Source: Umbilicaria muhlenbergii
Taxonomy: Eukaryota > Ascomycota > Lecanoromycetes > Umbilicariales > Umbilicariaceae
Length of the DNA stretch: 64,000 nt
Direction: 5' to 3'
Assembly: GCA_000611775.1 (NCBI GenBank)
Contig: KK106981.1
Location: forward strand, 4,280,927 to 4,344,926
Shown: positions 23,298 through 64,000 of the stretch, in pieces
Layout: the number at the start of each line of letters is the position of its first letter
Numbering within the stretch: position 1 is the first letter of the stretch
Translations under genes and position numbers: made by a program
Notes under the pieces: model-generated
Database searches by the model: none
Told to the model about the DNA's origin: nothing
What the model saw: only the letters and a program-made list of their open reading frames with translations

Positions 23298-24266
23298 TCA
23301 CTTGCCCCCCTTCCCAACCTTCTTAACTTCGACCGCCTCTTCCTTCTTCCCCGTTTTGCTTTTCTCTCCTCCCTCCGTCCCCTTCTTCCCCCCGACCTCC
23401 TCCCTCCTCCCCTCCACAAACTCCCGATCCAAACTCACCCTCAACACCCTCCTCCCCTTTACCCCTTCCACCCCCTTCAGCAAATCATCCCGCTCATCCC
23501 ACCGCACCTCCCACATGCCCCCTTCTATCTCCGGCTCAACCACCACGAACTTCTCCTCCCCGTTGAGCGTCAGCCCGCCCCCGGTGCCGTTCGCGTCTTC
23601 GTCCGGGAAGGCATCGTCGTCGTCGGAGGAGGACGGGGCGGAGTCTTGGTCGAGGATCCACGACCAAGGACCGACGGTGTGGGGGCGGGATTGGGTGCGG
23701 TTGCCGTGGAGGAGAGAGCCGGTGGGGGGTTGGACGTAGATCCAGTTTAGCGTGGGGGGGGAGGAGGAGATGGTGGTGACGAGACCGATGGGCAAGGGAG
23801 GGGGGCGCTCGTCGTCGGGGTAGAGGATGTAGAAACCTTCGAAGCGGTGGGCGGGTTGGGGGTGGGGGAGGTCGGGGCGGGAGATCAGCACCTGTGTGTG
23901 TGTGTGTAGGACCTCTCGTTAGCTGTCGTTACTTTTGTCTCCCCTCTTCTTTTCCCCTTCTCCCTTATTCTCCCTCTGGCTCCGTCTCTCTTCCTCCTTC
24001 CTTCCCCCACTTCCCTTGCCCCAGCCACAAACCCCCCCCAAAAATACGTCCGCACTCACCTTGCCCCCACCCACAACAACCACCCCCCCATGAACCTCCC
24101 CCCTCCTCCCACTTTTCGCATCGCAATAACACCTCAGATAAAACTTCCGCATCAACTTCTCATCTGGCGGCTGGCGGGCGGCTTCGACGGCGCGTTTTTG
24201 GCTGGAAACGCCTTCGGCCACGGCGATGGTGGTGGGGAGGGCGGTTAGGGCGAGGAGGCCTATCAT
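23298..24266 (-). CDS. Conserved fungal hypothetical protein
   Basis: Exons 24266-24060 and 23891-23298 with a 168-nt intron (GTGAGT...CACAG, with a CA run before the acceptor) give 266 aa. It matches a family of short fungal proteins starting MIGLLALTALPTT, with a first exon ending at a Gly-Gly-Lys and a second exon carrying HRFEGFYILYPDDE and PPTLNWIYVQPPTGS, then TVGPWSWILDQ. No function is known to me. The N-terminus has a weak hydrophobic stretch. The C-terminal 50 residues are a Lys/Glu-rich tail, longer than I would expect. Both exons run sharply from C-ending codons to G-ending codons, giving very C-rich and G-rich tracts that also create long spurious frames on the other strand. Confidence 0.75.
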
Positions 24267-25119
24267 TGTGGTTTCCCCGGGGGATGGAATGGGGGGTGGG
24301 AGTAGGGATGGGGGTGATGAGGGATGAGAGGGATATGGGGGGAGAGGGGGGAAGAATGAGGTGAGGCGGTGGGTTGATGGGTGATGGCGGATGGGGGAAG
24401 AGGGATGAGAGATTGGGAATGGGAATGGGGAGGGGTGAGGGAATTGGGGGATGTAAAGTAGGGCGAAGGGAGAGATGCGTAGATGGGAGAAAGGAATTGG
24501 GAAGCTGGTTTGCTTGGAGTAGAGTAGGTAGGGGAGACCCCTGTTTTGTTGATGTGCGTCATTGTGCCGGAGTGGGGCGTGGGGGCAATGCGGGGTGAGT
24601 TCTGACGATCTAAGACGTGGATTCGGAAAGTTCTGTATGGGTACGACTTGGTTTCCTTCAAAGATCGATTGGGAATAGGTAGAGGAGTACAGGTTCTGTA
24701 TTGATATCCCTGTTCCTCTATAGCCTTCTGACGTTTATCCTCCACCACAGAATGTACATACCTAGTTGTACAACGACCACTAGCCGCCTCCGCTCGCTGA
24801 TTACTGTATGCCCCTTTCGTCGCTGCTAACAGTACAAGTGTACAATCAATCCTCCCAACTCCTCGTCAGCCTGAAAATGCATGGATAGCGCAATCATAAA
24901 CTTCTAGCTTGTGACATACCCAACCCATTAATGTCAATTATTAACGCATGCCCAGAATGCCTCCACGAGCAGATAAAGTACTGCATCGATTCAAAAAAAC
25001 CTCCGAGTGCGAAAATCAAAAGGGAGTCGTCCTCCAAAACGAGAGTACAATAGATGATCCATAGATATCCAACTTGCTTCCTTGCCCAAGGAGGGAGAGT
25101 AGGAGGCTTTTAACAAAAG
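24267..25119. other. Intergenic with a strong purine tract
   Basis: 850 bp. From about 24280 to 24480 the plus strand is almost all G and A (GGGATGGGGG-type), so the coding-strand leader of the minus-strand gene at 24266 is CT-rich, as is common in fungal promoters. No gene is seen. Confidence 0.5.
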
Positions 25120-28100: not shown

Positions 28101-30168
28101 TCGCCGCAGGATGAGGACTAGCCATGACCATATTTGCCATTCCGCGCAAATCTGAAGACCATTCCTCGATGGGACCCAAACTGGTCTTTGCCCAATTCAC
28201 ACTACGCGCAAATTGTATGTGGCGTGGCATGGCGGGCGATAAGGGTATCCGAGTCCAGTCGAAGAAACCTTGATTCGACTGGCTTGGATCCAGAGGCTGA
28301 TCCATATCACTGTTAAGGGCTAATTGCAGAGTGTTCTTGCTCGACCGGAACAGAGAAACTCCAGTTGTATCTTCGGACTCGGGTTGAGGATTAGGGGTAT
28401 TCACTCCATTGGGTAGGGGTTGATTGTTTTCACCTATTGTGACTGTCTCTGTTTCGTCAGGTATCTCGATGGTTGAGACTACGCCGTCTTTGCCCTCGTT
28501 TGTAGATAATTCTGCCGGTATTGGGGTTCCAACATTACCGAAGTAATCTGAAGGTTCCTTCTGCAAGGAACTGAGCCCTGCCATTTCGTGTCCCGGAGTA
28601 CTTTTGGTTTCTTCGGTTATCAACGACATTGCTGATGTTGGATCTACCGAGGGTGGGTTCGAGGCTACGCTGGTTGCAATTGACCTGGTACTGGAGCTGA
28701 TGCTCGTTGGCATGGAGTTGAGATTGCCACTGATCAGGCGTAGTCGTTTCCTTAACGTGGAACAGGTCCAAGCAATACCCCCGTAGATGAAGGAGGGTAG
28801 GCTTACATCCAGAGACTCATGATTCTTCACAAAACTAATAGACCATGCCTTGAATTCAGAGAACGTAGTCGTGACAGCGTAAAGAGGCGAGGCCTGATGG
28901 ACCTTCCCTGAAATCATGTCTAACAAGCCAGAGTAACCTCTTAACGCGGCATTGGCAAAAACAATCTGGAGCGGCCCGGGTCGAAAGTTCGCCGAATTCC
29001 CTACGTCAATGATGAACGTTGGCCGCTCGTCCTGCTCCAACAGCTCAACAATCCCGACCTGACCTAAAAATTGCATACTACTTGTCGTCTCCCTATCTTC
29101 CGGTGTTGGAGCCCTGGGTATGCTGCCCCTTTCCATAGAGAGACGTGCACCTGGCGTACTGGCTGCACGTGATGGGCTACCAATGTTGATCGGCCCTCTG
29201 GCTAGCCTCACCGTCTTGATACCCCCAGCATCCTCGCTTTTGTTTGCCTTGCTCAACATGGTCGCCCCGGCTTCCGAACTCGAGAACCGAAGAGGTAGAG
29301 GCGGGCGCCGACGAGGGGAGTGGGAAAAGAAAAGCGGCGACGGAGGTGAAAGGTCTGTGACAGGACCTTTCGGAAATGTAGATGGATCTAATTTATGATC
29401 AGATTGGACGCCGCGGCGGGCTTTCTTCGCCGGAGGCTGTTCGCTGATAGAAGAGAGAGTTCGAAACTCGGAAGGAATTGCGCGCTTCTTCGAGGAATGA
29501 AAGGACGGAGATGCTTCCGTCAACAGCAACTCGTGGAGCTTTGGGTACGAAATGGCGCGACTTGATATCGAGGGACGTAGCTCATTTGGATGCTCGGAGC
29601 TCCATGATGGCTTCCGTAAGACTTCAGCAGGCGAAGTGAGCCCTTTGCCCAACGGCTTCTTGGGTTCTGCAGTCGGTTCACCTGCGCTGCCGCCGGGAGG
29701 TTTTTTATTGCTGAAACTTCGTGGGGCGGTAAAGATCGAATGCGGAATATGCATAGATAGAGATAGACATTCGCGCTCCTTGCCACTGAGAATCGTGCTT
29801 GCAGCTGGCTCGGTCAAGAGCTTCTCAGGCGGCACTCCGTCGCAACAGCCAAAGCAGCAGCTGCAGGATGATGTGCCCTGGCCGCAGACACGTGCAGTAC
29901 CGACCCTAGGGGTAGTGTTCGTAGATGCGTCGGTTCTTGAGGTGTTTACGTCGATTGTTAGGCTTCCTCGACTGGACGGATCCACCTTAGGGTCTAACAA
30001 TCCCTGGGGGAGCAATGCGGAAATATTACAGCAGTGCAAGTGGTGACGGCCGCGGCAGGGGAGTGTTGCCGGAGATTCCAGTCCGCTTTCGCTTCCGCTT
30101 CCGCTTTTGCTTTTGCTTTGGCTTGCTCCGCCGGCTCCGCTTGCTGGCCACGCTGGCCAAGGGAACAT
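25120..30168 (-). CDS. Hybrid histidine kinase (PAS, HisKA, HATPase, receiver)
   Basis: The frame codes about 1,650 aa after removal of one likely intron. Order: a long disordered N-terminus (about 1-370), a degenerate PAS-like segment near 385, a second sensor region (about 660-800, WGEDNVAIYNEAYILLAG), a GAF-like region, a PAS domain (about 1030-1150), and the dimerisation H-box with His near 1173 in SHEMRNPLSAI. Next come the HATPase N-box (LINLMTNAIKF), G1 (DSGRGL) and G2 (GGSGLGLFI), and a receiver with Asp near 1554 in ILMDLEMPVMDG. All phosphorelay residues are present, so it should autophosphorylate and pass phosphate through its own receiver to a Ypd1-type HPt protein. It has no transmembrane segment and is probably cytosolic. 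A probable 87-nt intron (25267-25353, GTGAGT...AAG) interrupts the receiver just before VVSKPF. Confidence 0.93.
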   Translation of the reverse strand: MFPWPAWPASGAGGASQSKSKSGSGSESGLESPATLPCRGRHHLHCCNISALLPQGLLDPKVDPSSRGSLTIDVNTSRTDASTNTTPRVGTARVCGQGTSSCSCCFGCCDGVPPEKLLTEPAASTILSGKERECLSLSMHIPHSIFTAPRSFSNKKPPGGSAGEPTAEPKKPLGKGLTSPAEVLRKPSWSSEHPNELRPSISSRAISYPKLHELLLTEASPSFHSSKKRAIPSEFRTLSSISEQPPAKKARRGVQSDHKLDPSTFPKGPVTDLSPPSPLFFSHSPRRRPPLPLRFSSSEAGATMLSKANKSEDAGGIKTVRLARGPINIGSPSRAASTPGARLSMERGSIPRAPTPEDRETTSSMQFLGQVGIVELLEQDERPTFIIDVGNSANFRPGPLQIVFANAALRGYSGLLDMISGKVHQASPLYAVTTTFSEFKAWSISFVKNHESLDVSLPSFIYGGIAWTCSTLRKRLRLISGNLNSMPTSISSSTRSIATSVASNPPSVDPTSAMSLITEETKSTPGHEMAGLSSLQKEPSDYFGNVGTPIPAELSTNEGKDGVVSTIEIPDETETVTIGENNQPLPNGVNTPNPQPESEDTTGVSLFRSSKNTLQLALNSDMDQPLDPSQSNQGFFDWTRIPLSPAMPRHIQFARSVNWAKTSLGPIEEWSSDLRGMANMVMASPHPAAMYWGEDNVAIYNEAYILLAGQKHPQLMGQSYAEAWSEIWFAVKDVFASARLTGQATMKDDDCLFMKRSGFLEETYFSWSIIPLVGEDGSVVGLYNPAFEKTRRKIAERRMLTLREVGEKTAAARDVKGFWSQVLKGLEYNEYDTPFVLLYSVTDDPDSDASSVHSNSMLSPRQCVLEGSLGVPDGHRAASSHIDLKAGTDGFGHIFRETMKTDRPILLQTDNNTLSPELIEGIDWRGFGDPCRAAVVFSIHLTTSDSVLGFLVMGINPRRPYDDDYDLFVQLLMRQLATSMASVVLFEEEIKRGQRAARLAALDRIELSEQLAARTQEAVESETKFTRMAEFAPVGMFIADSEGRITYCNDTWYDISRVPKEDNSTDNWMASVKDEDLERVKELWTNLVQNTIPMNAEFRFKAPWVDRNGTKGDTWVLASAYPEKKEDGSLKSVFGSITNISQQKWAEDLQKRRMEEAVELKRQQENFIDITSHEMRNPLSAILQCADEISSSLTNFKLVQPVTQPPLELVDSNIDAAQTIALCAQHQKRIVDDILTLSKLDSALLLVTPVDAQPVTVVQRALKMFEGELSTADIAMEFKVDESFQKLNIDWVRVDPSRLLQVLINLMTNAIKFTTTQAKRTIVVTLAATLGRPSNNEDSYVSYFPTRSKRKDLTEGSDWGEGEEVFLHFAVQDSGRGLTDDEKKLLFIRFSQASPRTHVQYGGSGLGLFISRELVELQGGEIGVSSKSGVGSTFAFYVKARRSKPPSSKDALDQMHVAEAAASRKSSQGLKPQKPAPARAPPARGQSFDNKGSLKVLIVEDNLVNQRVLSKQLRNLGCVVHVANHGGECIDFLQQSRFWYGHEADGSDLSVILMDLEMPVMDGLTCARTIRDLQREGRIVGHVPIIAVTANARSEQIDTALQSGMVSFDPTLFREMKCEPRDDEGYLLIGVVSKDDVVSKPFRIPELIPKIEELVARHGPMPVTPERALSPLAPSASAHESS

Positions 30169-41735: not shown

Positions 41736-44700
41736 TCACGCCCCCTCCAACCCCTCATACAACCCGACCCCCCACCCCTCACTCGGATTATTAAACCTCG
41801 TCATCCACTTCCTCCCCATCTCCTCCACCGCCACCAAATCCTCATACTCCAACATACACCCCCCGGCCTGGAAATTCTCTTCGATCCGTCCCGCATGCGC
41901 GCTTTTCGGAATCACGCTCGTGCCGCGCGTGACGCCCCACTCGAGGACGACCTGCGCGGGCGTGCAGTTGCGGCGGCGGGCGATGTGCGTGATGGCTTCG
42001 TTTTCCAACAGGGGCGGCGGCGGCGGGGAGGAGGAAGGGGGGGCGGAGTAGGTCGGGTTCGAGTTCCCCAGGGGGGAGTAGGCGGTTATGTGGATGCGGC
42101 GGGCGGCGTGGTAGTGTAGCCAGGTGGATTGCGGGAGGTAGGGGTGGAGTTCCATTTGGTGCGCGAAGGGCGGGTGGGAGGTGGAAAGGAGGAGGGCGGA
42201 TAGTTGGGGGGGGGAGAAGTTGGAGATGCCGATGTGGTGGACTTTGTGGGTGGAGAGGAGGAGGGTCATGGCGTGCCAGGTCTGTGGGGGAGGGGGGGGT
42301 TAGTGGGTGAGGACTTTTGGCGGGGGAGAGTGGGGGAATGGGGGGTGGGGAGGTTGGTTGGGAAAGATGGGGAGGGGGAGGGAAGGGGGGACGTACGTCG
42401 AGGTAGTCGATTTTGTTTCCGCTAGAGGAAGAAGCGACGGGCCAGTGCATGAGGTAGAGATCTAGGTAGTCGAGACCCAGATCTTCGAGAGTCTGATCGA
42501 GTGCCTTCTCGACCATATCCGGCGCATGACTGTTTTCCCCCGCCCCTCGTGTCAGCTGTGTTGCAATGGGGCGATATAGAGGCCAAATAGATGTATTATA
42601 TCTAGCTAAATACCGCTCCAATTGATATAAATGAACGTGTAGAAGCAAGCAGTCTTCGTAGAAATCAGGGCACATTAAATAACCCCCCATATCGGCTTTC
42701 TCGGTGCTCGCCTACATTGACCGAGCGCCTATAGTCGGGCCGAGCGCATGTAGGCATGATGCCTGCTACGGGCATATATTGGCTGCTGCAGGGCGGGGCG
42801 GACGAACGATTTTCCACATGCAACACTTAGGAGTGCTGTGAGCTAAATGAGCGAGTAGAAGTGGGAATATATGTGCTTACGAGGAATGTTGTCTCTGTGT
42901 ATACTTGTGCGGTAAATGCCTAAAATGACCCCCCCCAACTTGTAAATTCCCGGAATAACCCCCAAAACTTCATAATTCCTCGTTTGACCCTCAGCCTTCT
43001 ATAGAGGTGCTTTCAGGCTGACTTTCATGCATTTATTTGTATGACTCAGGTTGTTTAAAACGGGTCTGAACTCACTCTGATCTACAGTCTACTCATCATT
43101 AACTCGCCTGCTTCTTTTCTTTGTGAAGCTCTTGATAGGTTCATGTAATCGTGCCTCGCCAACTAGAATTCAGCACTCTCCGGTTGAGTTTTCAATTATA
43201 ATCTTAACTAAACTTTTAATCGTGCTTTGCTTACTAATAATCGTTCACACGATTACTTAACAATGAACATCATAAGTATGCGACAACACAAATGTTTTCT
43301 ACACCCACCTTTGAATCAATTTATCCCCTAATATTAATTTGATTGAGGAAAGAACAGTGCAGACATTTTTATTCTTCAATATTTTTAGGGGGTCAAACGA
43401 GGAATTATGAAGGTTTGGGGGTTATTCCGGGAATTTACAAGTTGGGGGGGGTCATTTTAGGCATTTACCGCACAAGTATACACAGAGACAACATTCCTCG
43501 TAAGCACATATATTCCCACTTCTACTCGCTCATTTAGCTCACAGCACTCCTAGATGTTGCATGTGGAAAATCGTTCGTCCGCCCCGCCCTGCAGCAGCCA
43601 ATATATGCCCGTAGCAGGCATCATGCCTACATGCGCTCGGCCCGACTATAGGCGCTCGGTCAATGTAGGCGAGCACCGAGAAAGCCGATATGGGGGGTTA
43701 TTTAATGTGCCCTGATTTCTACGAAGACTGCTTGCTTCTACACGTTCATTTATATCAATTGGAGCGGTATCATATAGATTTCTTCTTCGAGCTCGCCGGC
43801 GAGGTATGCGCTGACGACGTCCATTTGGTGTATATGCAGGTCTTCGTACGCTGCAATAGCCAGAAGCATGCGGAGCGAGTTGAAACGTAGGGTTGAGGCA
43901 AAGGTTTCTTCGTAGTCCACTCCATATTGCTGGGAAAATCCTCTAGCAACCAGGCGGGCTTTGAAACGCTCAATTAGGCCGCTCGGAGTGTACTTTACCT
44001 TAAATACCCATTTAGAACTGATTGGTTGACGCCCCTTAGGCAGTTCAACCAGTTCCCATGTGCCGTTGACCGCCAGCGAATTTAATTCTTCGTCTATGGC
44101 TTGGGTCCATTGACGGTGATGAGTAGAGCTTCAGACTGCTTCCTTGTAGGTGGAAGGCTCATGGACCTGCTCCTGAATAGCCATATTGGACATATATCGT
44201 GTATTCAGCTTCGATAATCGACCACTTCGAGTATATAATGGCGTCGAACCCAGTGGCCGGCCTGGAATTCTTTCTTGCTCCTCCGGAATTTCAGCAGCTG
44301 ATCCAGGTGCCAAATGTATGGTTCTGGAGGCTTCTTCAGAGCCAGAAGAATCTTCCTCATTTTCCTCAGCTTGATCCGAATGTGTATCGTTATCATTCGA
44401 ATTTTCTTTGAAATTTCCGGTTTGATTTTCGGGCCCCTGAATCAACGTCAGAAGCTCCAATAAATCTCCCACTGCTCCAGTGGGCTCAGGGCCTGGAGGT
44501 AATGCTCCCCCACTTTCATTGCGCCTCAGAGAAAGCTCCTGAGGCGTCAAGACCAGTGTGTCGTCGTCGTCAATGGTGTCGGGGTCGATAGGGTTTTCCC
44601 AGCCATCCTTATAAAGGCTTGAATTTGCCAACAAACTTCCTCCTTTCTCTTTCTCAAGGAAGAGAACATGGGTATGGATTTCTACCAGGTTTTTAGAAGG

Positions 44701-47700
44701 ATTCCAGACCCGAAATTGCTGGTTGCTCTTGCAATAACCAACGAAAACCCCCTTATAAGAGGTGTCTTCCAATTTCGCCCGTTTTTCCTTTGGTATGTGG
44801 CAATGGACGACGCACCCAAATGGTCGTAGATGTCCAACGGAGGGTTTAGACCCTGTATATAATTCATATGAGGTCTTTGCCCCATGTTTAGGTCCCAATG
44901 GGAGTCGGTTTCGTAGGTAGGCGGCGGTTTTGGCGGCCTCTCCCCAAAATTCTGGTGACAATTGAGAGTCATAAAGCATGCTCCGAATGGCCTCTGTAAT
45001 CATACGGTTTAGGCGTTCAGCGTAACCGTTTTGTTCCGGTGTATATGGGGTGGTAAATTCAAATTCTACCCCCTTAGGCGTCCAAATTCTGGCCAATTTG
45101 CCATATTCTCCGCCATTATCACATCAAAAGACCAGGAGCTTCTTTCCGGTTTCTTTCTCTGCCTTTAGCTTCCATATTTCAAACGTTGCATAAAGATCCG
45201 TCCTCGCCTGGAGTAGGTAAAAATCACCATAACGGGAATATTCGTCAGAAAATGTAGCGAAATATCGGTTTCCACCTAGACTATCAATCTGGTATGGTCC
45301 CCAAATGTCTGAAAAGACTCGTTCCAAAGGCTTTTGAGCTCTTGGTATTGAAGCCTTGTTCTGTACCCGTATCATTTTACTGTGTAGACATGCCGAGCAG
45401 TCCTTTTCCGCTTCGGAAGGGCGTAAATCGCGGGTTATACCCTCCACACATGATTTTAGGCGTTGCAGGCGATATGCCCCTGCATGGCTGAATCTCTGAT
45501 GCCACTTCAAGTACTCGGTTTGTGGCTGGTTCGAAGTTTTGGAAATTTCAGGGGTAATTGGCCCCAAAACCTCCACCGGGGCAGGGGCTCCATATGAGCC
45601 ACCCGCCTGCTCTGGACCTGCTCCCACTGGCTCCGGAGTGAGCCATAATATAGGCGGTGCTCCCCCTGCTGTCGCTGGAGCGGCCAGGCCGTTCGTCGAT
45701 TTTTGGTAGGTCTGGACCTTAAAGGCCACTTTCCCGTTTGTCGATTTCAGTATATAAACTGAACCGTGCTGGCTTGCCGTGGCAATGACGTTTCCTTGGC
45801 GCTTAAAAAGCACTCATTCGAGTCCAAATTCCACGGTTATCCCATTCTTACTGGCTGCTCCGATCGACAGCAAATTCCCGTCCAATTCTGGGACATAAAG
45901 GACGTCCTTTAGGGTGAGTATTTTGCCCACAAAAGAAACTTCCGCCTTGCCAATTCCAGTCGCCTTTATCAAATTTCCATTGGCCAAGCAAACGTCCGTA
46001 GAGTAATCCTGAATTTCGGTGAAAAAGCTCCTATCCAGGGTCATATGATGACTTGCTCCGGAGTCGACTATCCAGCAGCCGGGAGGTAATTCCAGGCTGG
46101 CTATGACTTCCAAGGCCGTCGCTCTTCACGCCCTGCCATCATCGCTGGCTTCGTGGTCCTGGTTGTTTGATTTTTTCAAATTTTTTGAAGTTTCCGACCC
46201 CCCTGAACTTTCAGAGGCTTGCCTTGCATTGGCCTTTGATTTCGGGGGTGGTTTAACACCGTTTGAGGGTAATTCTTCCCCGTCTTTCGTATGGGTAGCG
46301 TAGCAATTCACGGCGAAATGACCCTTTTTCTGGCACTGAAAGCAGGTTTTCCCGCGTTTGCTGTCCTTGTCGTCCTTGCTGAATGACTGCTGGCTCCCTG
46401 TCTGGCTTCCTGCCTTGGCGGCATTGGCGGTGGCGTTCTTGGCCGCCTTATTCAAGGCGTCTTCCATTTCCTTCTCCTTTAGTTGGCGTAGGACATTGGC
46501 AATAGACGACTCTACCACCTCATTTCAAATTCAAAAGATCATTGGACCATATGGGTCCTCTCATAAAGCTTCAAGGAAGACTTCTCGAAGCATGTTATCG
46601 TAAATAGGAGTCTCAGGACTTAAAACCTGAATTTCAGCTTGGATTTTCCGCAAGGCGTATAAAACTTGCTCCGCCGTCTCCTTTGGTCCTTGCTTATAAT
46701 TGGAGAAAGCTCTGATTTGGGACAGGTAGTAGGTGATTCCTATAAGCTTCTTCATCTCCTTTAGGCGGTCCCAAAGCTCCTTGGCAGTCTCAGGTTTATA
46801 GAAGGTTGCGTCGGCCTGGTTGCAAAATGATTTTATATCATACCAGGCTTTCCTGTCTGCCCTTACCCACTTCTTGGTCTCCTCTTGTGATCCCTGCGTC
46901 TCTTTCTCGTCCACTAACACCTTTTCTGGCTTGGCGTACGCCCCTTCAACGACGTCCCAGTGGTCTCGTGCCACCAAATATGCCTGCACGGACTCGGCCC
47001 ATGCCATATAATTGCTCTCGTTGAGCTTTAGGGCCGTCGTGCCCTTCGGTCCATCGTATTCCATGCTCTTTCAAGTCCGTATGACTGCTCCTGCGTCTGC
47101 GGCGGCGTGGATAACGGTTCGAAGGGGGGGGGGTGTGGATTTTCGAAGTTTTTCGACCTCTTTGGTTCGAGCGATAAACCGATGTTTTATCGTCTGGAAA
47201 TGGACGTTTATATCGTCCGCTTGCGTGGTAGGCTTTCGATTGCCTAAACGGGTCGAGGGATCGTCGGCGAGGGCTAGGGCAGAGTAGGGTAGTAGGGCAA
47301 AGCAACGACAACAGGCGGTAGTTATGCACTGACCGGGCTCATAACCTGTTGCAATGAGGCGATATAGAGGCCAAATAGATGTATTATATCTAGCTAAATA
47401 CCGCTCCAATTGATATAAATGAACGTGTAGAAGCAAGCAGTCTTCGTAGAAATCAGGGCACATTAAATAACCCCCCATATCGGCTTTCTCGGTGCTCGCC
47501 TACATTGACCGAGCGCCTATAGTCGGGCCGAGCGCATGTAGGCATGATGCCTGCTACGGGCATATATTGGCTGCTGCAGGGCGGGGCGGACGAACGATTT
47601 TCCACATGCAACAAGCTGTGCCCTAACCGGCCCCTCCGTACCTTTTCTCCACCTCCATCCTCCGCTCTCCCTTTCCCCATTCTAGACCCCCGAAGCAGTC

Positions 47701-48025
47701 GCACTCACTGATCGTTCCACAATTTACTCGTCACCCACACATCCCCCCTCCCCACTCCCGCCAGCTTCATCCCCTCCTTAATCCCCCTCCCCACCTCCTT
47801 CTCATTCCCGTACGCCGCCGCGCAGTCGATATGCCTGTATCCGGTCTTCAGCGCCACCGCGACGGCGTCGGAGGCATTGGAGCGCTCGAGATTCCAGGTG
47901 CCGAAGCCGAGGAGCGGGATCGAGAGCTGCGGGGTGGAGGATATGGGGTGTTGGGCTGCGGCGGAGTCGTGGATGTGGGCGGAGGTGATGGCCGCTAGGG
48001 CTAGGAGTGTGAAAAGCGATTGCAT
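41736..48025 (-). CDS. Aldo/keto reductase with signal peptide; first intron carries an LTR retrotransposon
   Basis: Aldo/keto reductases reduce aldehydes and ketones with NADPH. Exons 48025-47709, 42529-42397 and 42281-41736 keep frame and give 331 aa, the usual length. Catalytic residues are present: Asp67 and Tyr72 ([14 protein letters not shown]), Lys101 (VTSKLW) and His134 (YLMHWP). The first junction joins KLWND to [15 protein letters not shown] exactly as the family expects. Residues 1-24 form a hydrophobic signal-like leader ending near SAAAQ, unusual for this cytosolic family. Intron 1 is 5,179 nt, of which 5,060 nt are a retrotransposon plus its target duplication; without it the intron would be 119 nt. 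Donor GTGAGT and acceptor CAG are untouched, so correct splicing is possible, but the element lies in the same orientation and could end transcripts early. Exons 1 and 3 show the C-to-G codon shift. Confidence 0.85.
42559..42825 (-). repeat. LTR (3' LTR in element sense)
   Basis: 267 bp, from TGTTGCAATG to CACATGCAACA on the plus strand; a direct repeat of 47347-47613. The TG...CA ends and adjoining AGCTG duplication mark it as the outer terminus. Confidence 0.95.
42610..43770. repeat. Large inverted repeat (about 380-bp arms) inside the copia element
   Basis: Left arm about 42610-42991, right arm about 43387-43770, nearly perfect reverse complements; the spacer of about 400 bp is AT-rich. 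Each arm consists of about 165 bp of element-internal sequence joined to about 216 bp of LTR, so the right arm is an inverted copy of the element's own 3' end, including a partial LTR in the opposite orientation. Confidence 0.9.
43771..46113 (-). pseudogene. pol-like region of the copia element (protease, integrase, start of reverse transcriptase)
   Basis: A fossil polyprotein region in several frames. In order it shows an aspartic protease ([12 protein letters not shown]), the integrase zinc-binding and core regions (WHQRFSHAG, then FSDIWGPY and [14 protein letters not shown]), the copia-type C-terminal integrase domain ([19 protein letters not shown]) and the first part of reverse transcriptase ([22 protein letters not shown]). 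It is broken. Confidence 0.85.
46126..47064 (-). pseudogene. gag-like region of the copia element
   Basis: A fossil capsid-type region. The N-terminal part has [17 protein letters not shown], typical of the copia gag (UBN2) domain; the later part has a [14 protein letters not shown] zinc knuckle for nucleic-acid binding. The region is broken. Confidence 0.85.
47335..47346 (-). other. Primer-binding site matching the anticodon arm of initiator tRNA-Met
   Basis: Directly inside the 5' LTR the element-sense strand reads GGTTATGAGCCC. Its complement GGGCTCATAACC is the anticodon stem-loop of eukaryotic initiator tRNA-Met (CAT is the anticodon). Priming from a tRNA cut in the anticodon arm, rather than from its 3' CCA end, is known for Drosophila copia and some relatives. 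Confidence 0.8.
47347..47613 (-). repeat. LTR (5' LTR in element sense)
   Basis: 267 bp, nearly identical to 42559-42825 with one visible difference close to its end. It is followed on the inside, without a gap, by the primer-binding site at 47335-47346. Confidence 0.95.
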
Positions 48026-48501: not shown

Positions 48502-51500
48502 TCACCCCTTGGCCGCCTTCCTCGAACAAAGTCCCGCAACCTGTTCAAACAGATCCACCACAGGCGGCAGAGCAAAAGCCGGCCCTACATCAAAGATCCC
48601 AGCCAGATCCTCTTGCCGGAACACGGACGCATCTTCATCGTCCTCGATCATTAGCACCGCATCATGCGTTCGCCCCTCCCCATCCATTGAGAAGTCCATA
48701 ACGTCGTTTCCCATCTTGCCCACGCCGTAGATATTCTCCAATCCCGCTAGAGGTACCTCTTCAACCGTCGGGGCCGGTGCCGGTCCGGGCATGTATGGTT
48801 GTGCAGATGGCGTGAGAGTCCTAAGCTCGGCCGCCGAGTCAATCGCATAATACCCCTTCCTACCCGTAGCGGGCAGAAGTGAGATGGTCGTATTCGGCAG
48901 CGTCGTCCAAACGTGCGGAGTCGGATTATCAGGATCAAAGACCGCAATGCGGGACCTCAGCGTCGTTGTAGATTTCGAAGAATGACCGATTTCCGGCAAG
49001 GCGATAGCGAAGGTGTGGTTGTGTTGATGGACGGCTAGATGCGTGGTGGCGATTTCCTTGGCCGTGGATAATCCGTACGATTTCAATGAAAAGCCGTAGT
49101 GGAGTTCATCGTCGACCAAGTCCCACACGCCGATTTCGTTGGACAGCATGATCATATATCGATCCACCATGCCGAGACCCATCAAACGACCGGAATAGAG
49201 ACCAGTTCGAGTATAGCGTACCCCTCCGCTGTCGGTGTCGATGAGATCAATTCTTAGGGGAGATTGCGAAGACCCAGCAGCGAGGAGTGATCCGTCTTGA
49301 GAATACGCCAAGCATGCGGTGAGAGGCTCATTATTATTAACAGTGGTAGCGAATGTCTTCTCCAAAGGCACAACATGGCGACAACTCCAGTTCGTCAGAT
49401 TCCTGCCATCCTTGCCGCGAACCTGGACTCCATTACGAAATCGCATCTTCGGTGTCCAGATCCGTACCGTGTTGTCGTCCGCAACTGTAGCAAAGCCGAC
49501 TGAAGAAGGGTCAGAAACCAGATCCAACACCTTCCCCGTAGTTGGAGGCCCCAAAGAATCTCCTGCATGGGGGTTATCAATTCTAGCGACAAGCTCCCAT
49601 GTACGTAGATCACTGTTCCACGACCAGAATTTCAGATGCACTTCGAGTCGAGCATCCAATTCTTGTGCGGCACTCGGCTCATCAAAGGCTAAATGAGCAA
49701 TATCTCTTTTGGGTGGTTGCCATTCATCAACCGTCGCAAGCCATTGGCCATCACAACTGACTTGCATGTGTTTAACACATGGCTCCTCGATCAGGTTGCC
49801 CTCGGGGCCCATATTGCGAACGGTGACGTTCGTCCTCGTCAAGGCTTGCCGAGAAATCTGGTGTGCCGAGGCTACGTCAACGGTCTGTAGCTGAGCAGCA
49901 CTGCGGCTTGTAGTAGTCGACAAGCGTGCAGATGATGACGTGGGAACCGCGAGTAGCAATTGACCCGAGTTGACTGGATTGATAGTGGATGGAAGTCGGC
50001 TGGGCTGCGTCGACGTGAACTCATGAGGTGGCGCATCAACTCGAGGTACATGTGGCAGCAATGTCCCAGGCTTTGCTGATGTGGATACTTGTATGCCAGG
50101 AATGCTGGTAGTCGGTTGAAGCTCTGTAGTGGAGAGGACCATGGTAGAGTTGTCGGCAAGTCGAATAGCGTAAGACGAGCCTGAAGGAGAGACCACAACG
50201 GCTTCGATGGGGGCTGATAGATGAGGTAATTGTTGTTGTCGTCCAGTCTCGAGTTGCCATAGGATTAGAACAGTTTCAAGCCCACCAGATATCACGTAGT
50301 TGCCTGTACGTATTAGCAGTCATCCACTTCATTAGAGCATTATGCCTACCATCAAGTGACCACTTCGTCGTAGAAACACCATTTCTGTGCCAATGAAGCC
50401 GTTGTGGAGTCAAATCTTGTCCTGTCACAGACTTCCCACGTCGTTCTTTTCGAACAAGTTTACCTAGAAGATCCTCATATATGAAGATAGACCCTTTCAT
50501 GTCCCCTACAACAATGTCCACCGTCACCTGACCTTTTGACTTTGACGAGTTTGTTCCGACCGCTCCAGGGCCAGGTAATTGCGAGGTGTCGGAGGGAACT
50601 CGTCCATCGAGACTCGTGATCCATTCAGGACATGATATCTCTCTCCAGACATATGAAAGATCATTTAGCGATGCTGGGCCAGCCACTTCGCTACGTCCAA
50701 TCATCAAACGTGGGCCAGAGCTTGCCACAATGATCTTCCCACCAGCGAGCACCTTCAACGCAGTCAGAGGTTCCGATGATTTTAGTAATGTACGTAGTTC
50801 GGTCTTCGACGCATCGGCTTTTCCACTCAATCTGTGCGCCGTGATCATCCATTGGCCCTTCTTATCAACGGTATATATGATGTCTCGATCTGCCGGGCTT
50901 TGTGCCAAATCCGATCCTGCAAGGTTGAAAATTTGGGAGGATATATCCCATCTTCCGAGATGCTTGCCCCTGTTCCAGTCATATTTGTGTATAGAGCCTG
51001 AATTAGTAGCAACGTAGAGGAGATTCGCATCTGTTGGGGAGAGCACGAAGCCGACAATGAACCCAGATCTTGCGATCGTGAGCTTTCTGGTTAGAAGCGA
51101 AGTGGAGGTAGAGTAAACGTGTATGGAAGTATCGTAGGCAAGGAGGAGATATCTGACGAGAAAGTACACAATCAGTCCTGAAGTAACAAGCCTGGACTCT
51201 GATTAGATACGTACTTCTCGTCCGGACTGAACACTGGGTCTAAGTCAAGCAGCCGACCTCCAACAGGATCTGAAACCCTCCACGCAGAGTCTTTGAACTC
51301 TTCTACCGCACGCTTCTCACCCGCTGCTCTAGAACGTCTCTTCTCCTTCTTACTTGCATCCGCCGCAACATCCACTACGCCACTATCATCACCCTGCAAT
51401 GCTATCGTCCGATCCTTTTCTCTCTGCCTCTTCTCCTTCTTCGCCTGCTTCCTCGCAAGTTTAATCGCCAGTCTCTCCTCTTCCGTGTTCGCCCCAGAAA

Positions 51501-51663
51501 CAACAGCATGTCCATTCACCGACCCGTTCGACTGTGCCGCGACGACGCCGTTTTCTTCAGCGCCTTCTTCGTGCCTGCCATTTCGTTGGTCCTTTCTGGC
51601 TTTCTTTAGTCCGTTGATGCTCGCGGACTCTCCTTCTGTAGCTTCCCGCTTTCTCTTCGACAT
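48502..51663 (-). CDS. utp17: UTP17/NAN1 (WDR75), WD40 subunit of the t-UTP/SSU processome
   Basis: Utp17 belongs to the t-UTP subcomplex, which starts assembly of the small-subunit processome on nascent pre-rRNA in the nucleolus and supports RNA polymerase I transcription. Exons 51663-51215, 51152-50350 and 50303-48502 keep frame and give 1,017 aa. The first exon is a highly charged, lysine-rich tail (KLARKQAKKEKRQREKDRT), a nucleolar-type sequence. WD-repeat blocks follow, with typical stretches such as DTSIHVYSTSTSLLTRKL, VSTTKWSLDGNYVISGG (spanning junction 2) and TVADDNTVRIWTPKM. The pattern WSLDGNYVISGGLETVLILWQLETG is the hallmark of the NAN1/WDR75 family (given here as a discontinuous reading). 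It is head-to-head with RPB10. Confidence 0.9.
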
Positions 51664-52869: not shown

Positions 52870-55800
52870 TCAATGATGTCTCTCATGCAAATAAACCACC
52901 GTCGTCCACCCCGCACAACACCCCGTACTCATCCCATGTTCACACCACGGACACTTCACCCTCGTCTCCACCACCCCAACCCCCGCATCCTTCTCCTTCT
53001 CCTTCTCCTTCCCCTTGCCCACCCCCACCTCCACACCCAACCGCCTCTTCGCCTCCGCAACCACGTTCCTCGCCCCCACACTCCGCGCCACCCGATCCCC
53101 CTCCTCGATCCCCCGCCCCCTGCCCCCCACCGCCATCGCTTCGTACAGCCGACTCGGCAAATCGTGCCAGAACTTGCATTTGCAGCAGATGACGAACATC
53201 TTCGCGATCGGCTTGACGTCGAGTCCGTTGTTGCCGGTTATGCCGGGGCCCGGGGCGGGGAGCGTGCTCAGGGTGTTGGGGGTGGGGGTGCGACGGGTGG
53301 AGGAGGAGGAGGCGCCGGGGCGGAGGGGCGAGCCGGAGGAGGGGGTGTGTGTGTGGAAGGGGGGTTTGGGGGTGAGGGTTAGGGAGGAGGTGGTGGCGGT
53401 GGATGAGGGGAGGGGGAATTTCGACATGGCGGCGTAGGAGGTGGGCTTGGAGTCGGTGGTGGAGGTGGCGGGGGTGACACGTTTTGGTTTCGTCAAGGGT
53501 TGGTGCTTTAGTTCGGGGAGGAAGTCGAGGGATGGAAGGGCAGTGGTTTGGGGGAGTTGGAGTTGTGGGTTGGAGCGCGATCGTTTGAGGGAGGGTTTTC
53601 TGGTGGTGCCGTCGCTGGCGACACTTTCGATTATCACTTCGAGGTTTGGCTTCGCAGAGGAGGTGGCCAAGTTTGGCTTTTTAGACGATGTGTCTAAGTC
53701 TGGCTTCTTGGACGATATATCTAACGGCTCGTCTGTGGTAGACTTTTCGTTATTCGCCGGCGCAGTTTGTGTATCAGTGCTGCTCTGCGTAACGGGGCTC
53801 TTATCACGACTACTCGGCCCGGAAACTGGCTTTTGCGACGCCTGCTGCGACACAGAGGTGAAATCCGGTGTAGTTGACGACTTCGGTAGGATCTTAGAGG
53901 CAAGTATGGTATGGACGGCCCTCTTTGGAGAACGATCTGGTATGCTATAATTTGGTAGAATCGGAGGAGCTTCGACTTCAGTTGTCTTGATGTCATTTTT
54001 GGTTCGATGGGGATTCATTGTCAGTGGGTTTGGTATTGGAATTTTGGATTCACGCTCCGGTTTCGGAATCTTGGGGGGCAAGACCACACTTATAGGGCTG
54101 ACGGGTGAGGGCGGAGAGGTAGGTGAGTAGGGGTTTCTCTTCGACTGGCCCACCGTCACGGTATCCGTGGAGTCCGAAGACACTGACAGGGCTTCGAGCT
54201 TTGGACGACGTTGCACATCTTGGGTCCTATCCACTTTAGGAGCTCCCGAATGTTGTGATCTGCCAGTCCCTGTGCAATTACGCGGCTTGTCTGTCGAAAA
54301 AGCAGGATGTTGATCTTCCCCTTTGTCTTTGAAGGTGACCTTCCTGTCAAGGCTCTTGCCCTGTCGAGTGGGCGAGGTCCTTGGTGATTTTTGAATCGAT
54401 TCTGCCGAGTCAGTTGGAGTCGGTGGCCATCTCCGATTGACATTATATATAGAATCGTACCCGTCCGTAAGCTGCATGCTATTGCTAAGAGCCATCTGAT
54501 CTTCATAACTGGCGATGGACCTTTGTTGTTGATGCATTCGCTGCTTATGAACATAGCTACTCCCATCAATCGACGACATTATCTGTGAAGTTATAGTATC
54601 AAGGTTCACGGGGCTAGCTTCGCTGCCGGTTGCACTATTTCGTTTGATTGTAGTGTCTTCTCTACGGCCGTGGGCTTTGGCTGCTTTGCCTCCTTCGTCG
54701 GAGTGTTCATCACTTCGCGGTTTGATCCGGCCCGGAGACTCATATCCGCTTCTGGATCGATTCTTCTTACTGATTGAATCCTGCCCGTCGGAAGGCCTTC
54801 GTTCTGTAGGCGCAGGCTTGACTGGGGCTGGGATTTCAGATGTCTCGCGACGATTTTTGGATAAGTCCACATCGGTGTTATTCTGGCTAGTAGGCGGTGT
54901 CACAAAGCGCTGAGACTTGCTGGAGGGAGTCGAAATATCATCAGCAGTGGCAGGCTCCACAGTGCGTTCTTTTCCAAATGAGAGTGTCCTGAGCCGGTAC
55001 GCAAACTCAACGAGGTCTTTCTTGTACGAGTGTTCTTCATCATCGGCCAATATCGCAGATTCGCATGAAGATACACGGCGCGAATTTGTTTCAATCCCTG
55101 AGAGCTTTGGAAGCTGCGGCGCAGTGTCGCTCACAATCGGTCCGGAATTATCAGGCCACGCCGAAAAGTTCTTGGCAGATATAGGACTCCATCGCTGTAC
55201 AAACGACGAAATCGATGATATAGAGGACCGTCGCTCGTCTCGAGAGGACCGTCGAGAGTGGTCTGTTGATGTTGGCTGCGAAGCCGATTGTGAGCCGGAT
55301 GAGAACCTCCTCAGAGCTGCCGGCATTCTCTGCGTATCCATTGCGGCCGGCGGCTTCTTACTCAAGCGCTTACCTGCCTTTCCCAGTGTTTTCTGGATTT
55401 CGTCATCTTTCTCCTTCTTCACTTGCTTTTCCAAATCCTTGGTTTCCTTTTCGGCCTTTTCGGCCTTTTTCTTCTCTTTCTTCTTCCTGCCTCCGCCAAA
55501 CTGTGACCAACTTGGCGACTGGCAGATTTCCTCGTCAAACGATCCTTCCTTCGCCGACAAGTTTTCTGGCTTCCGTGAAGACGACCGTTCCTTCTCTTGT
55601 TGGGGGATCAGAACGGACAAGGACGGCATAGTTTGCGATTTGGTGGGTAAAGAAGGACGCGGGATGGAGACTGGTTCATATGCTCGCCGAGATCTGCCTG
55701 GATCTGGACTTCTGTCCACTGAGGTCCTTGCCGCCGGGCTTGTAGCTTTATCGGTTTGGGGAACCTGATGACCCTACAATGGTAGGTCAGCCTGAACTGG

Positions 55801-60310: not shown

Positions 60311-62244
60311 CTAGAACCCCAAGATCTCATTCGCTCTTTTCAAAAGCCTGGCCTCGCCGAGGGTCTTGACTCCGACATCTTCATTCCACTCATCACCTCC
60401 CAAGATCTCATTCGCTCGTTGTATAAACCTAATCTCGTGTTGAGGCTTAATTTTGACATCTTCATCCCATCTGCTCAGTCCCATCGCCTGCTGACCCTTC
60501 AGACCAATGCTCTTCATCACGTAATCCGGGGTAAGTCGGCCGATATGTTTGCCTTCGCCCTCGCCGGATGGGAAGTCTGGCGCAGGAATCCCTACATTGG
60601 AGATTGTGTCAGCTCAGTCTCCAAAAAAAGCCGGATGTACCAGCCGAATGTCCACAATCCACGAGTTGCGGGGGCACCTCACCTTCAGCAAATGCCTCAC
60701 GCTGGCGCACCAGATACTCGGCATTAGCTTCAGTTAATGGACAAGCTGGTATGTACATCACGCTGGCGTCACTCTTGCCGTTGTGCATCTTATCGACTGC
60801 ATGGATGGCTATGAGCTGCAAATTAGCAAGTGTGGAAACATCATGACAGCGTTCGTCTGGCTGTCGGGGGGATCGCTAAAATTCCAGTATGGCTCCGAGG
60901 ACCAAACTTACTATCACAATGCCACACCACATAATCCCCCGGATTTACCCGCGGCACATGTACCATCGAATCCTCAAGACTCAAGTGCGGATGCAACACG
61001 GTATTCAGTTCTTGACAATGCGAAGGAGTAGCGCCTTGAAGCACCGGTGTAGGTTCCGTCTCCATCTTCCAATTATCCGCCTCCAAGAACGCAGACCCAT
61101 ACGCCTCTCCCGGTGCTCTTTTCGGCTCGAAAAACGGCCTCAGGAGAAAGTACGCGGTCGACTTCCCCAACAACGGATTCACCATCAAGGTCCCCTCTCC
61201 CGGCCCCGTCGCACTCATCGACAACCACCCTTGGAACATCCGGAACATCGAGCACGCACCGGCCCCATTGTACAAGTCCGATACCACAGGTAGTCTGCAA
61301 CTGCTCTCCCACGGATCGTATTCCTCCCAGTTCCCTTGGAATATATGCTCATACACTCGTCCTCGTCCATACCCGTTATCTTCCCACCGCTCGCAACTTC
61401 CGCCGTCGACGTGCGGACCGAGGGCGAAACCGGCGTCGCCCGGTTGACGGATCCGAACCCGGTCGGCGTAGGTGGTGGGATGGGCGGTTGAGATTAGGGC
61501 CGTGGGGTCGCGGGAGTGCCAGTGCGACATTAGGAACGATTGCGTGCGGAGGAGGTTTGGGTGGGCGCGTGCGAGGATCTGGGAGGGGGACCAGTAGAGC
61601 TCGTAGACGGCGGGGTTGTGGGCGGGGAAGCCTGTGGTGCAGAAAGAGGCAGTCTGTCAGCCGCGCTTCCGTACGCCCACGCATCAAGACAAAAGCCATG
61701 GTAGTGTCTGGCCACCGAAACCTCGCCTCCCTCATAAAGTCCTGGGCTGTTGTAAAGGGGCTTCCCACGGCTACCCACCTTTCGTCTGCGGATTCTCCCC
61801 CACATACCCCCTCACCGCCTCCTTCCACCCCACCGCCTCCCTCTCCCCCACCACCCCCGTCACAACACCCACCCCCCTCCTCCTAAACCCCTCCCCGAAC
61901 TCCGCTCGTCTCTCCGCCCTCTCAATATCCGCATACGCAATCTTCGGCACCACCGCCGGCCCCCGTGCCCGCAGAACCTCAACCTCCCTCCGCAGCTCCG
62001 TCAGCAACCGCTGCCAACTCGCCAGCAGGCGCTCTTCGTGGCCCCATATGAGGCGCGTTTTCAGCGCCGCGAAGCGGGGGGGCAGGGGCAAGGTCGCGGC
62101 GCCGGAGAGGGAGGGGAAGACGGAGGAGATGTCGCCGGAGGGTTTTTGGAGGGCGGGGGCTGTTGAGGCGGCGCGGCGGCGACGGCGGAGGGCGTGGGTG
62201 GGGAGGGGGTGCCGGAGGTGGCGGGAGCGGAGGGGGGAGGGCAT
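60311..62244 (-). CDS. DUF1479 family protein (predicted 2-oxoglutarate/Fe(II) oxygenase fold)
   Basis: Four exons keep frame: about 62244-61779, 61631-60912, 60808-60683 and 60591-60311, giving 530 aa. DUF1479 proteins (bacterial YbiU and many fungal relatives) have the cupin-like fold of Fe(II)/2-oxoglutarate enzymes. The likely metal ligands are in GPHVDGGSCERW (HxD) and in the His of WHCDTIHAVDKMHNG, which is rebuilt by the second junction. Other family blocks are LYWSPSQILARAHP and RMFQGWLSMS. Exon 1 starts with an Arg-rich, Ala/Pro-rich leader (about 45 residues) that could be a mitochondrial presequence. Substrate and reaction are unknown. The first two exons each run from C-ending to G-ending codons. 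The exact base of the first donor is uncertain by one. Confidence 0.85.
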
Positions 62245-63044
62245 TGTTGGCGGTGGGAACTGTTTGTAAGGCTTTCGTGGACGGGCGAGCAGTGGTTACG
62301 GAATGGCAATAATCTTGGGATTCCTCCCCATTTTATCTGGTGGGGATGCTTGAGAAACCACGCTAGGTGACACTACACTCATGGCGGATGGCGGGCCCGG
62401 TCTATTTACCTGGCGCGGGGAAATTCTATTTATTCCGGACGGGGGGGACCCTATTTACCCGGCATTGGGGAAGTTTGGTAAAGATTGCCGGGGTCATGGC
62501 ACATGGACCGGCTTGCAACAAACTAGTAGTCCATTGGATTGACGGTGCATGATATTTAGCCTCGACAGTTAGAGAACTAACGGTCCAGCATGGTTGGTTG
62601 ACAGTGAGCCTGGGTCTCGTGCCCAAGCGATCGGCTGAGATTCCGGCAAAATAAAATGCCTACAAAGGCTGTTGGACGCGGATATGCAACATCTACTCGG
62701 AGTAGAATTGCCTGCCTAAGTTACTCAGGCTCGCGAGGCACTTAGATGGCAGTACTTATATTTAGATGTTAGGCGCACGATTAATATTGAATCAAGTGCC
62801 AGTAGTAAGCAAGCTTGCAGGACAATCGGAGAGTAACTCAGCAGCCAATCGAGAACGAAAGACACATGGTTAATCAGTAAACCAGGAATGCAGATAATAG
62901 AGCTTCAAAACTACTGCTTTCTACCATCTGATCCTTTTTCGGCTTTCCTTTCGAAGGCCTCCCTATCCACGAACCGCCACTGATTTTAGATACTGCGCCT
63001 GCAAATGTTCGACGACCCCAACCCCAGCTCCACCCCCCTAATTT
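62245..63044. other. Intergenic, no supported gene
   Basis: About 800 bp. Near 62400-62470 a phrase CTATTTAC/CTATTTAT recurs three times (before CTGGCGCGG, TCCGGACGG and CCGGCATTG), possibly a small degenerate tandem repeat. The left part is the promoter of the DUF1479 gene. Confidence 0.4.
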
Positions 63045-63981
63045 TTACGCATCAACCTCATTCTGAATCATAACCTTAATCGCCCCCGTCTTCGGATCCG
63101 CCGCCGTATGAAACGCCTTAACCGCATCCTCAATATCGAACCGATGCGTCGTCAACCGACTCAAATCCAACACCCCACTCTCGACCAGCCGAATCGCCCT
63201 CGGCCACGTATTGCTGTACCGATACTGAAACTGCAAATCCACCTCCATCGTACTCAGCCGCATAAACGGCATCTTCATCTCACTCTTCCCGACCCCGATC
63301 ACAAACACCTTGCCCCCGAACTTCATGCTCCAGATCGCCGCCGCGATACTGCTTTCCACGCCCGTGCACTCCATCGCGACCGCCGGTCTCATGCCGGCTA
63401 GTGCGACAATTTGCGCCGCCGCTTCTTCTTCGCCCACGCCTCGCTCCACTTTGTAGGTCCGCACCCGCGACACCAGGCTCTGCGCGAACTTCAGCCGTCC
63501 CGCGTCGATATCCGTAATGACGATCGGCTCCGCCCCCGCCGCCGCGCAGCACAGCAGCGTGACCAACCCGATCGGCCCCGCCCCACAGATGAGCACCGGG
63601 TCCCCCAGCTGAATCCCGCTGCGCTCCATGCCCGCGAGCGCGACGCTCAACGGCTCCAGCAGCGCGCCGTTCTCGTAACTCATGGCCCCGATCTTGTGGC
63701 ACCAGATCGCCGGGTGGTTTACGTAGCGACGCAGCAGGCCGTCGAAGGGCGGGGTGGAGGAGAATTTCACTTTTTCGCAGCCGTTGTAGCGGCCGGTGAG
63801 GCAGGGTTCGCATTCGTTGCAGATGATGTTCGGTTCGATGGCTACGCGGTCGCCGGGTTGGAGGGAGGAGACGGAGGGGTGGACGGCGAGGATTATGCCG
63901 GCGGATTCGTGGCCGAGGATGTGGGTGTTTTCGACGACCATGGGGCCGATGCGGCCGGCGTGCCAGAAGTGCACGTCGGAG
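63045..63981 (-). CDS. ladA: L-arabinitol 4-dehydrogenase, 3' exon (5' part off the window)
   Basis: This zinc-dependent medium-chain dehydrogenase oxidises L-arabinitol to L-xylulose in fungal pentose catabolism. The visible exon starts at a CAG acceptor (63982-63984) and codes 312 aa. It contains HILGHESAG (zinc Glu/His region), [19 protein letters not shown] (structural-zinc cysteines), the Rossmann motif [11 protein letters not shown] and the LAD-specific [19 protein letters not shown]. The stretch [17 protein letters not shown] also fits LAD better than xylitol dehydrogenase. In place of a four-cysteine structural site the run NECEPC...GC is seen, as in many LADs. The first exon(s), with the catalytic cysteine, lie beyond the right edge. 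The exon shows the clearest C-ending to G-ending codon shift in the window. Confidence 0.9.
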
Positions 63982-64000
63982 CTGTGGGGGTGGGTGTTAG

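Follow-up and report, generated by a model that had tools for sequence, protein, structure and literature searches.

Opposite GC skews at the 5' and 3' ends of fungal genes were described by McLean and Tirosh (2011; PMC3315797); in the text covered, they are given as averages over bins spanning each gene between its start and stop codons, with a flat AT skew and no analysis of introns, and both mutational and adaptive explanations are left open. Here, we describe how such a skew is organized in Umbilicaria muhlenbergii (Ascomycota, Lecanoromycetes), in a 64,000-nt stretch of contig KK106981.1 (positions 4,280,927 to 4,344,926 of GenBank assembly GCA_000611775.1, hereafter the window) and in other stretches of the same genome. 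For the metabolic genes of the window, an earlier note had claimed that each longer exon changes from C-ending to G-ending codons and that the next exon starts again with C. We found that these exon gradients are a view of a bipartite block at the level of the DNA, ca. 0.4 to 1 kb in size, with a C-rich left arm and a G-rich right arm on the coding strand. The block usually lies at the 3' end of the gene; in some genes another one precedes it, the two meeting at or close to an intron. In common with the 2011 study, as far as its text was covered, there is a C bias on the 5' side and a G bias on the 3' side that reach fourfold sites, amino acids, and flanks. Unlike there, the skew forms discrete blocks of ca. 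560 bp, mostly at 3' ends and restarting near some introns, the arms are near mirror images, and the third-position AT skew changes sign. The blocks are thus a refinement of the known fungal gene skew.

Other described systems resemble the blocks in part. Human meiotic hotspots (PMC7615360, in the portion covered) share a reverse-complement-symmetric substitution bias about a centre at the kilobase scale, but on our reading their polarity is the opposite one if that centre is equated with the centre of a block, and it fits if breaks lie at the block edges. With GC-biased gene conversion (Marsolier-Kergoat 2013, PMC3845650, seen in part), the blocks share a local rise of synonymous GC, since GC at fourfold sites was.817 in the arms versus.554 in the remainder of the same genes (.532 in block-free genes). 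Intron GC rises less here than synonymous GC. We know of no C/G strand polarity in ordinary GC-biased conversion. The trend toward AT-rich codons at gene ends set out in the part covered of PMC6892556 differs from the G-ending codons found here. A literature search, judged on titles and the openings of abstracts, returned no report of such blocks or of a restart at introns.

The data comprised the window and 33 further stretches of the same genome (344 kb in total, from an assembly of 34.8 Mb in 7 contigs). Eight of these (L001 to L008) were retrieved by an aldo/keto reductase search, a choice that enriched them for blocks, and 25 stretches of 10 kb were chosen by place, 23 of them spaced out along it and two next to the window; L034 to L037, added later, were excluded from the counts. 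Genes were modeled with a purpose-written splice-aware finder without transcript support, giving 112 models (89 complete) with 291 exons, with intron-split codons and anything shorter than 300 nt left out. Gradients within exons were compared with synonymous shuffles (z values per exon, first 29 sequences; all later counts, 34 sequences), and codons were assigned to background, C-rich arm, or G-rich arm with a three-state model whose initially symmetric transition rates were then fitted.

Among 180 exons with 60 or more codons, z was below -2 in 68 and below -4 in 29, and exceeded 2 in five. The slope was steeper at higher GC3 (r = -0.59, 205 exons), falling below -0.5 in 10 of the 11 exons with a GC3 of at least 0.8, and the gradient was present in single-exon genes too, one of several points against exon signals linked to splicing. 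With the three-state model, 48 switches from C to G stood against 10 from G to C, 30 passages from background to C arm against 13 from background to G arm, and 12 from G arm to background against four from C arm to background; after a C arm came a G arm in 48 cases and background in four. Gene-wise synonymous shuffles under the fitted model left 9, 13, and 5 C-to-G switches, and reversing the codon order flipped the polarity (12 C-to-G versus 44 G-to-C). A block was found in 40 of the 112 genes, compared with 8, 10, and 5 after shuffling. By origin, these were 18 of the 72 genes in stretches chosen by place, 13 of the 19 in loci retrieved by the search, and 9 of the 21 in the window. The 48 blocks had a median span of 564 bp (10 to 90%, 367 to 976). 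With a tolerance of 30 nt, 20 left edges coincided with an exon start (3.1 expected) and 33 right edges with an exon end (2.9 expected). Twenty-eight contained no intron and 20 spanned one or two, which rules out a strictly exon-bound unit and also speaks against splicing-linked signals. The C and G arms of one exon correlated in strength (rho =.41, n = 163), as they did on normalized skew (rho =.42; partial rho =.29 given GC3).

A segmentation of the whole DNA made without gene models, of which only boundary counts were used because its background state moved to AT-rich DNA, gave 63 background-to-C and 68 G-to-background boundaries versus 19 background-to-G and 16 C-to-background ones, i.e., 131 of the expected kind versus 35 of the opposite kind, together with 171 C-to-G and 120 G-to-C changes. 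Blocks in intergenic DNA were considered and rejected on the strength of two of the three C-to-G steps of at least 0.4 outside gene models: these two (L021 near 8767 and L013 near 9457), inspected by eye, resemble missed genes; the third is in L016 near 2369.

The position of the blocks within genes bears on the main rival explanation, possible if doubtful, according to which antisense or other short transcripts of ca. 0.5 kb, arising from gene 3' ends and sometimes from introns, would imprint the C-to-G block by transcription-coupled asymmetry. The end of the block coincided with the end of the gene model in 30 of 48 cases and its start with the gene-model start in 12, and in 33 complete genes the last switch lay at a median of 291 nt upstream of the stop codon. 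G arms occupied the gene end at any gene length (7 of 17, 12 of 28, 5 of 20, and 12 of 24 genes, by rising length), as a transcript starting there would predict, and this 3' position is better explained by short or antisense transcripts than by recombination. C arms at gene starts, by contrast, nearly vanished with length (6 of 17, 6 of 28, 1 of 20, and 0 of 24 in the same classes; 12 of 45 genes below 400 codons versus 1 of 44 longer ones, and none of the 24 with at least 600 codons). Thus, the gene start is excluded as the anchor of the pattern, and a simple 5'-3' gradient from sense transcription alone fits badly. The raised synonymous GC of the arms is also left unaccounted for by transcription, while the published rule of C at 5' and G at 3' ends of fungal genes (PMC3315797, text covered) is in its favor.

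Within the window, the fall of third-position C (C3) and the rise of third-position G (G3) were borne out at all nine places where the earlier note had named them, with z between -4.6 and -9.6 at eight (the pair at 23298-24266 being counted by its exon 23298-23891). In a Gig2-like gene (PF07350) on the minus strand, exon 1 (61779-62244, z = -8.1) consists of a C arm and then a G arm that ends at the intron, C3 by quarters being.82,.56,.03, and.00 and G3.05,.33,.74, and.85. Skew resets from G to C at the 147-nt intron (61632-61778, minus strand), over which the PF07350 match continues (positions 2-107, then 105-329), and exon 2 (60912-61631, minus strand, z = -6.9) carries a second C-to-G block. 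A dehydrogenase-like exon (63045-63981, minus strand) runs from C to G along its full length to the stop codon; its model extends to 63998, where it is cut off, the z of -9.6 covers 63045-63998, and its label comes from reading the protein, the part scanned having no Pfam match. The last exon of a citrate synthase-like gene (PF00285; 4701-5520, minus strand, z = -7.8) also holds a block, the two preceding exons being nearer background, as does that of a major facilitator superfamily (MFS) gene (15832-16424, plus strand, z = -6.9), whose earlier testable exons had z between -0.2 and +0.8 and whose label derives from an MFS_1 match of an overlapping frame, under the curated cut-off.

The exon at 23298-23891 (minus strand, z = -5.9), without a Pfam match, carries a block as well. 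The 168-nt intron at the reset before it (23892-24059, minus strand) is G-rich like the upstream G arm (skew of its halves, +0.71 and +0.37), and the upstream exon switches from C to G at its 3' end (24060-24266, minus strand, step centre 24189), the whole exon 24060-24695 having a z of -1.6. The gene model 23298-29754 probably fuses two genes, one of them the upstream histidine kinase. In the aldo/keto reductase gene, the first exon (47705-48025, minus strand, z = -4.6) and the last (41736-42281, minus strand, z = -7.2) each hold a block; a 115-nt intron (42282-42396, minus strand) lies within the C arm without a reset and is itself C-rich (skew of its halves, -1.00 and -0.88). In a Ser-rich gene, the block takes up the last ca. 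580 nt (52870-53450, minus strand, steps at 53204 and 53596) of a 2.9-kb exon, and its C arm begins without a predicted intron, a further difficulty for splicing-linked signals; because the switch is limited to this end, z for the whole exon 52870-55773 is +1.1. As to genes in which the gradient had been called weak or absent, this holds for the histidine kinase (exon 25183-29754, slope +0.06, z = +2.6), and for the WDR75-like (UTP17-like) gene at 48502-51663 weak is right and absent is not (slopes of -0.10, -0.26, and -0.15; z = -2.1, -3.0, and -3.6), both genes being identified by Pfam.

The aldo/keto reductase exons stand 5 kb apart because a Ty1/copia-type long terminal repeat (LTR) retrotransposon (window positions 42559-47613) was inserted between them, splitting the PF00248 match into positions 2-74 and 75-288, one part to either side. 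It is flanked by a 5-bp duplication, AGCTG, and bounded by two terminal repeats of 267 nt, 100% identical by the repeat finder though not letter-for-letter equal on direct comparison. Pfam domains gag (PF14223) and retroviral SH3-like (PF25597) scored above the cut-offs and GAG-pre-integrase and integrase core below them. A 381-nt inverted repeat (42610-42990 and 43390-43770, 99%) inside the element includes part of the LTR and is an internal rearrangement or a nested piece. The predicted exons within the element showed no strong C-to-G slope, in agreement with a young insertion.

The claim that the gradient resets at introns stood on average and fell as a rule for every exon. The skew changed by -0.156 at introns (standard error of the mean 0.032, 107 junctions, 40 codons on each side) versus +0.054 at 3,561 points inside exons, and drops below -0.7 occurred at 5 of the 107 introns and at none of the 3,561 points. 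In the 64 multi-exon genes, the slope tracked position within the exon (-0.297, confidence interval [CI] -0.42 to -0.18) and not position in the gene (-0.021, CI -0.12 to 0.08), so that a simple 5'-3' gene gradient is insufficient, as the earlier note had argued; with within-exon position fitted, the whole-gene gradient expected from the published fungal skew was therefore absent from these genes. In the 41 multi-exon genes of stretches chosen by place, the within-exon slope was -0.213 (CI -0.389 to -0.063). Restricted to exons other than the last, it was -0.158 (CI -0.295 to -0.037) over all 64 genes, whereas the 41 chosen by place had no significant slope (-0.043, CI -0.154 to 0.070). The reset is therefore real and concentrated in part of the genes; beyond the window and the search-selected loci, the signal comes mostly from the 3'-end block.

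When 179 introns were classed by state, 145 had background on both sides and 34 touched an arm; the latter comprised 15 inside C arms, six inside G arms, six resets, four at the start of a C arm, and three at the end of a G arm. Thus, 21 of the 34 do not reset, against the claim for each longer exon and its successor, while all 13 boundary introns had the expected polarity and none the opposite. Seven of the 10 G-to-C resets had an intron at most 10 codons away (0.8 expected) and the other three were not near one; one of the 10, in L001, depends on a doubtful last exon of 10 codons. The C-to-G switch was near introns (within 10 codons) in one case of 48 (3.1 expected). Reset introns were longer than background introns (median 128 nt, n = 6, versus 63 nt; P =.03 against all others). 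The mean drop at introns and the clustering of resets near them are what splicing-linked exon signals would predict, yet most arm-touching introns fail to reset and, as described below, C-arm introns carry the exon-like skew themselves, so that the pattern is not confined to exons. We regard such signals as extremely unlikely to be the cause.

Boundaries at introns could also arise from mutagenesis of single-stranded DNA beside double-strand breaks at the block edges (gene ends and introns), as at human meiotic hotspots, where, on our reading, C and A are mutated to the left of the break and G and T to the right (PMC7615360, portion covered). An edge that is G-rich on its left and C-rich on its right has the matching polarity, as seen at the 13 boundary introns, and C arms that follow background started within 15 codons of an intron in 10 of 30 cases (3.2 expected). 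However, the other 20 of the 30 began away from introns, and start C arms, which breaks at gene ends should produce at any gene length, were lacking in all 24 of the longest genes. Paired effects across an edge, which this explanation also predicts, were not found, facing flanks being uncorrelated over 81 intergenic gaps (rho =.09); by orientation, convergent pairs did correlate weakly (rho =.38, one-sided P =.03, n = 25) and the other three orientations did not. That weak correlation favors breaks at edges as well as transcription from gene 3' ends, and on balance the former is unlikely. The first and last parts of genes were uncorrelated in 64 multi-exon genes (rho = -.06), with rho =.40 (P =.06) in 23 single-exon genes.

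The skew is not restricted to coding sequence. The 15 introns inside C arms had a GC skew of -0.64 versus -0.05 in the 145 background introns (P = 5e-7; introns with a trimmed body below 15 nt omitted from tests) and a composition of A.216, C.473, G.103, and T.208, and the six inside G arms had a skew of +0.16 (P =.03). Their GC rose to.58 in C arms versus.49, less than at synonymous sites. In the first 50 nt of the 3' flank, the skew was +0.40 for the 34 genes ending in a G arm and +0.17 for the 54 ending in background; behind G arms the flank stayed G-rich for ca. 100 nt (+0.40, +0.23, and +0.04 in succession) and then became slightly C-rich. This fading at ca. 100 to 150 nt past the stop codon is in line with short transcripts from the gene end. 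In the 50 nt upstream, it was -0.33 for the 12 genes starting in a C arm and -0.18 for the 76 starting in background, the former being rich in C and A. Hence both the G bias that runs from the gene 3' end into the flank and the C bias at the 5' end of the published fungal skew recur here. The skew is accompanied by shifts at codon positions 1 and 2 and in the amino acids.

The two arms are also near mirror images across the strands. Once sites up to 8 codons from a switch of state were set aside, fourfold sites were A.094, C.680, G.151, and T.075 in the C arm and T.130, G.684, C.108, and A.077 in the G arm, so that C/(C+T) in one (.879) matches G/(G+A) in the other (.883), and the share of A at purine sites of the C arm (.644) is close to that of T at pyrimidine sites of the G arm (.712). 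Small differences between arms (e.g.,.151 versus.108) were above sampling error, and neighboring bases altered arm composition modestly. The third-position AT skew was +0.35 in C arms and -0.49 in G arms, unlike the flat and positive AT skew of the published pattern, with a small change over all bases (about +0.1 left of the switch and about 0 or -0.1 right of it). Since the skew extends to introns and flanks and the two arms nearly mirror each other, the pattern belongs to the DNA and does not come from codon or splicing selection, a DNA-level reading that we consider highly probable. Of the two causes offered in the earlier note, splicing signals and transcription-coupled mutation, the former is not supported on these grounds; support exists for a process that acts on the DNA itself, by mutation or repair.

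Selection acting on codons or on the mRNA, for translation speed, structure, or stability, could be invoked because synonymous GC in the arms is raised far more than intron GC. As the main cause it is ruled out by the mirror symmetry and by the reach of the skew into introns and flanks. A higher share of T-ending codons in the G arm (.71 of C/T sites versus.45 in background) is also hard to reconcile with it. Folding of RNA between arms was no stronger than in synonymous shuffles (z = -0.02) in the 26 of 48 blocks that were intron-free and at most 800 nt long. On the basis of these blocks, a hairpin between C arm and G arm is likewise rejected, the folding energy equaling that of shuffles that preserve the gradient and of shuffles that erase it. 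Altogether, selection of this kind is very unlikely.

Our preferred explanation, to which we assign a probability of roughly 35%, is a DNA-level block made by polarized mismatch correction in recombination heteroduplex. Recombination would recur inside the block and heteroduplex would spread both ways from it, with a strand-asymmetric DNA process centred on the C-to-G switch; we infer a repair process of this kind working on both arms of one event. Mismatches with C on the invading strand opposite a base other than G would tend to escape correction, so that the left arm would gain C and lose G and the right arm the converse, and the faster divergence of introns and gene ends would tend to halt the heteroduplex and place block boundaries there. 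C-containing mismatches are poorly repaired in yeasts. Under such a rule, left-arm bases should rank C > A = T > G, an order that the introns of this arm follow. In mouse cells, mismatches after a double-strand break are resolved with a strand bias (PMC9001825, in the part covered), which we count in its favor.

Several points weigh against polarized correction, and recombination as the agent is held tentatively, with about the same confidence as coupling to transcription. In the same mouse work, the type of mismatch had little effect (PMC9001825, in the part covered). Fourfold sites of the left arm, taken alone, misfit the predicted order and call for an added GC bias, a bias that is weak in introns (.49 to.58) compared with synonymous sites (.53 to.83). 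The hotspot polarity (PMC7615360, portion covered), as read, would put breaks at block edges and not at their centres. Recombination leaves the preference for gene 3' ends without an account, and the weak correlation of convergent neighbors hints at an agent at shared terminators.

The earlier restriction of the gradient to metabolic genes could not be upheld as a rule. Of the 18 block genes in stretches chosen by place, scanned by their largest exon, 14 had Pfam matches: carboxypeptidase, Noc2, TFIIA alpha/beta, dioxygenase, Bmt2, kinase, AAA protein, short-chain dehydrogenase, uL23, ABC transporter, eIF3i-like, Diels-Alderase-like, NAD(P)H-hydrate dehydratase, and P450. Several metabolic genes were block-free, the 20 scanned of the 54 block-free genes including prephenate dehydratase, an amino acid transporter, a short-chain dehydrogenase, and a CoA transferase. 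From these lists, the split is therefore not one between metabolic and housekeeping genes; uL23, Noc2, TFIIA alpha/beta, and Bmt2 genes carry blocks.

Some individual genes of the other stretches illustrate the range. The gene for ribosomal protein uL23 (L013, 8387-8908) has a typical block, and the best Protein Data Bank matches of its protein are the 60S L25 chains 7r81 and 7olc, which we take to be from Neurospora crassa and Chaetomium thermophilum. On the opposite strand (L013, about 9320-9822), a gene that by eye is Tim8-like resembles another block, its intron being G-rich on the plus strand. A gene of L021 (8600-9909), oxidase-like by eye and with a last exon lacking a Pfam match, has two successive blocks; the introns of the first are C-rich and then G-rich, and a C-rich intron of 110 nt starts the second.

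The average C-to-G run of fungal genes reported in 2011 (PMC3315797, text covered) is now resolved into discrete two-armed blocks at the DNA level, and these weigh against codon choice and splicing signals as its main cause. Analyses of codon usage and amino acids in such genomes must reckon with a strong local strand signal. Every block predicts a site where recombination, breaks, or antisense transcription should occur. It is conceivable, and we put it forward with due reserve, that the fungal gene skew is the sum of short, mirror-symmetric footprints of repair or recombination that lie at 3' ends and restart near introns, instead of a transcription ramp over the whole gene. On this view, each block would mark the centre of a long-lived event, legible from a single genome.

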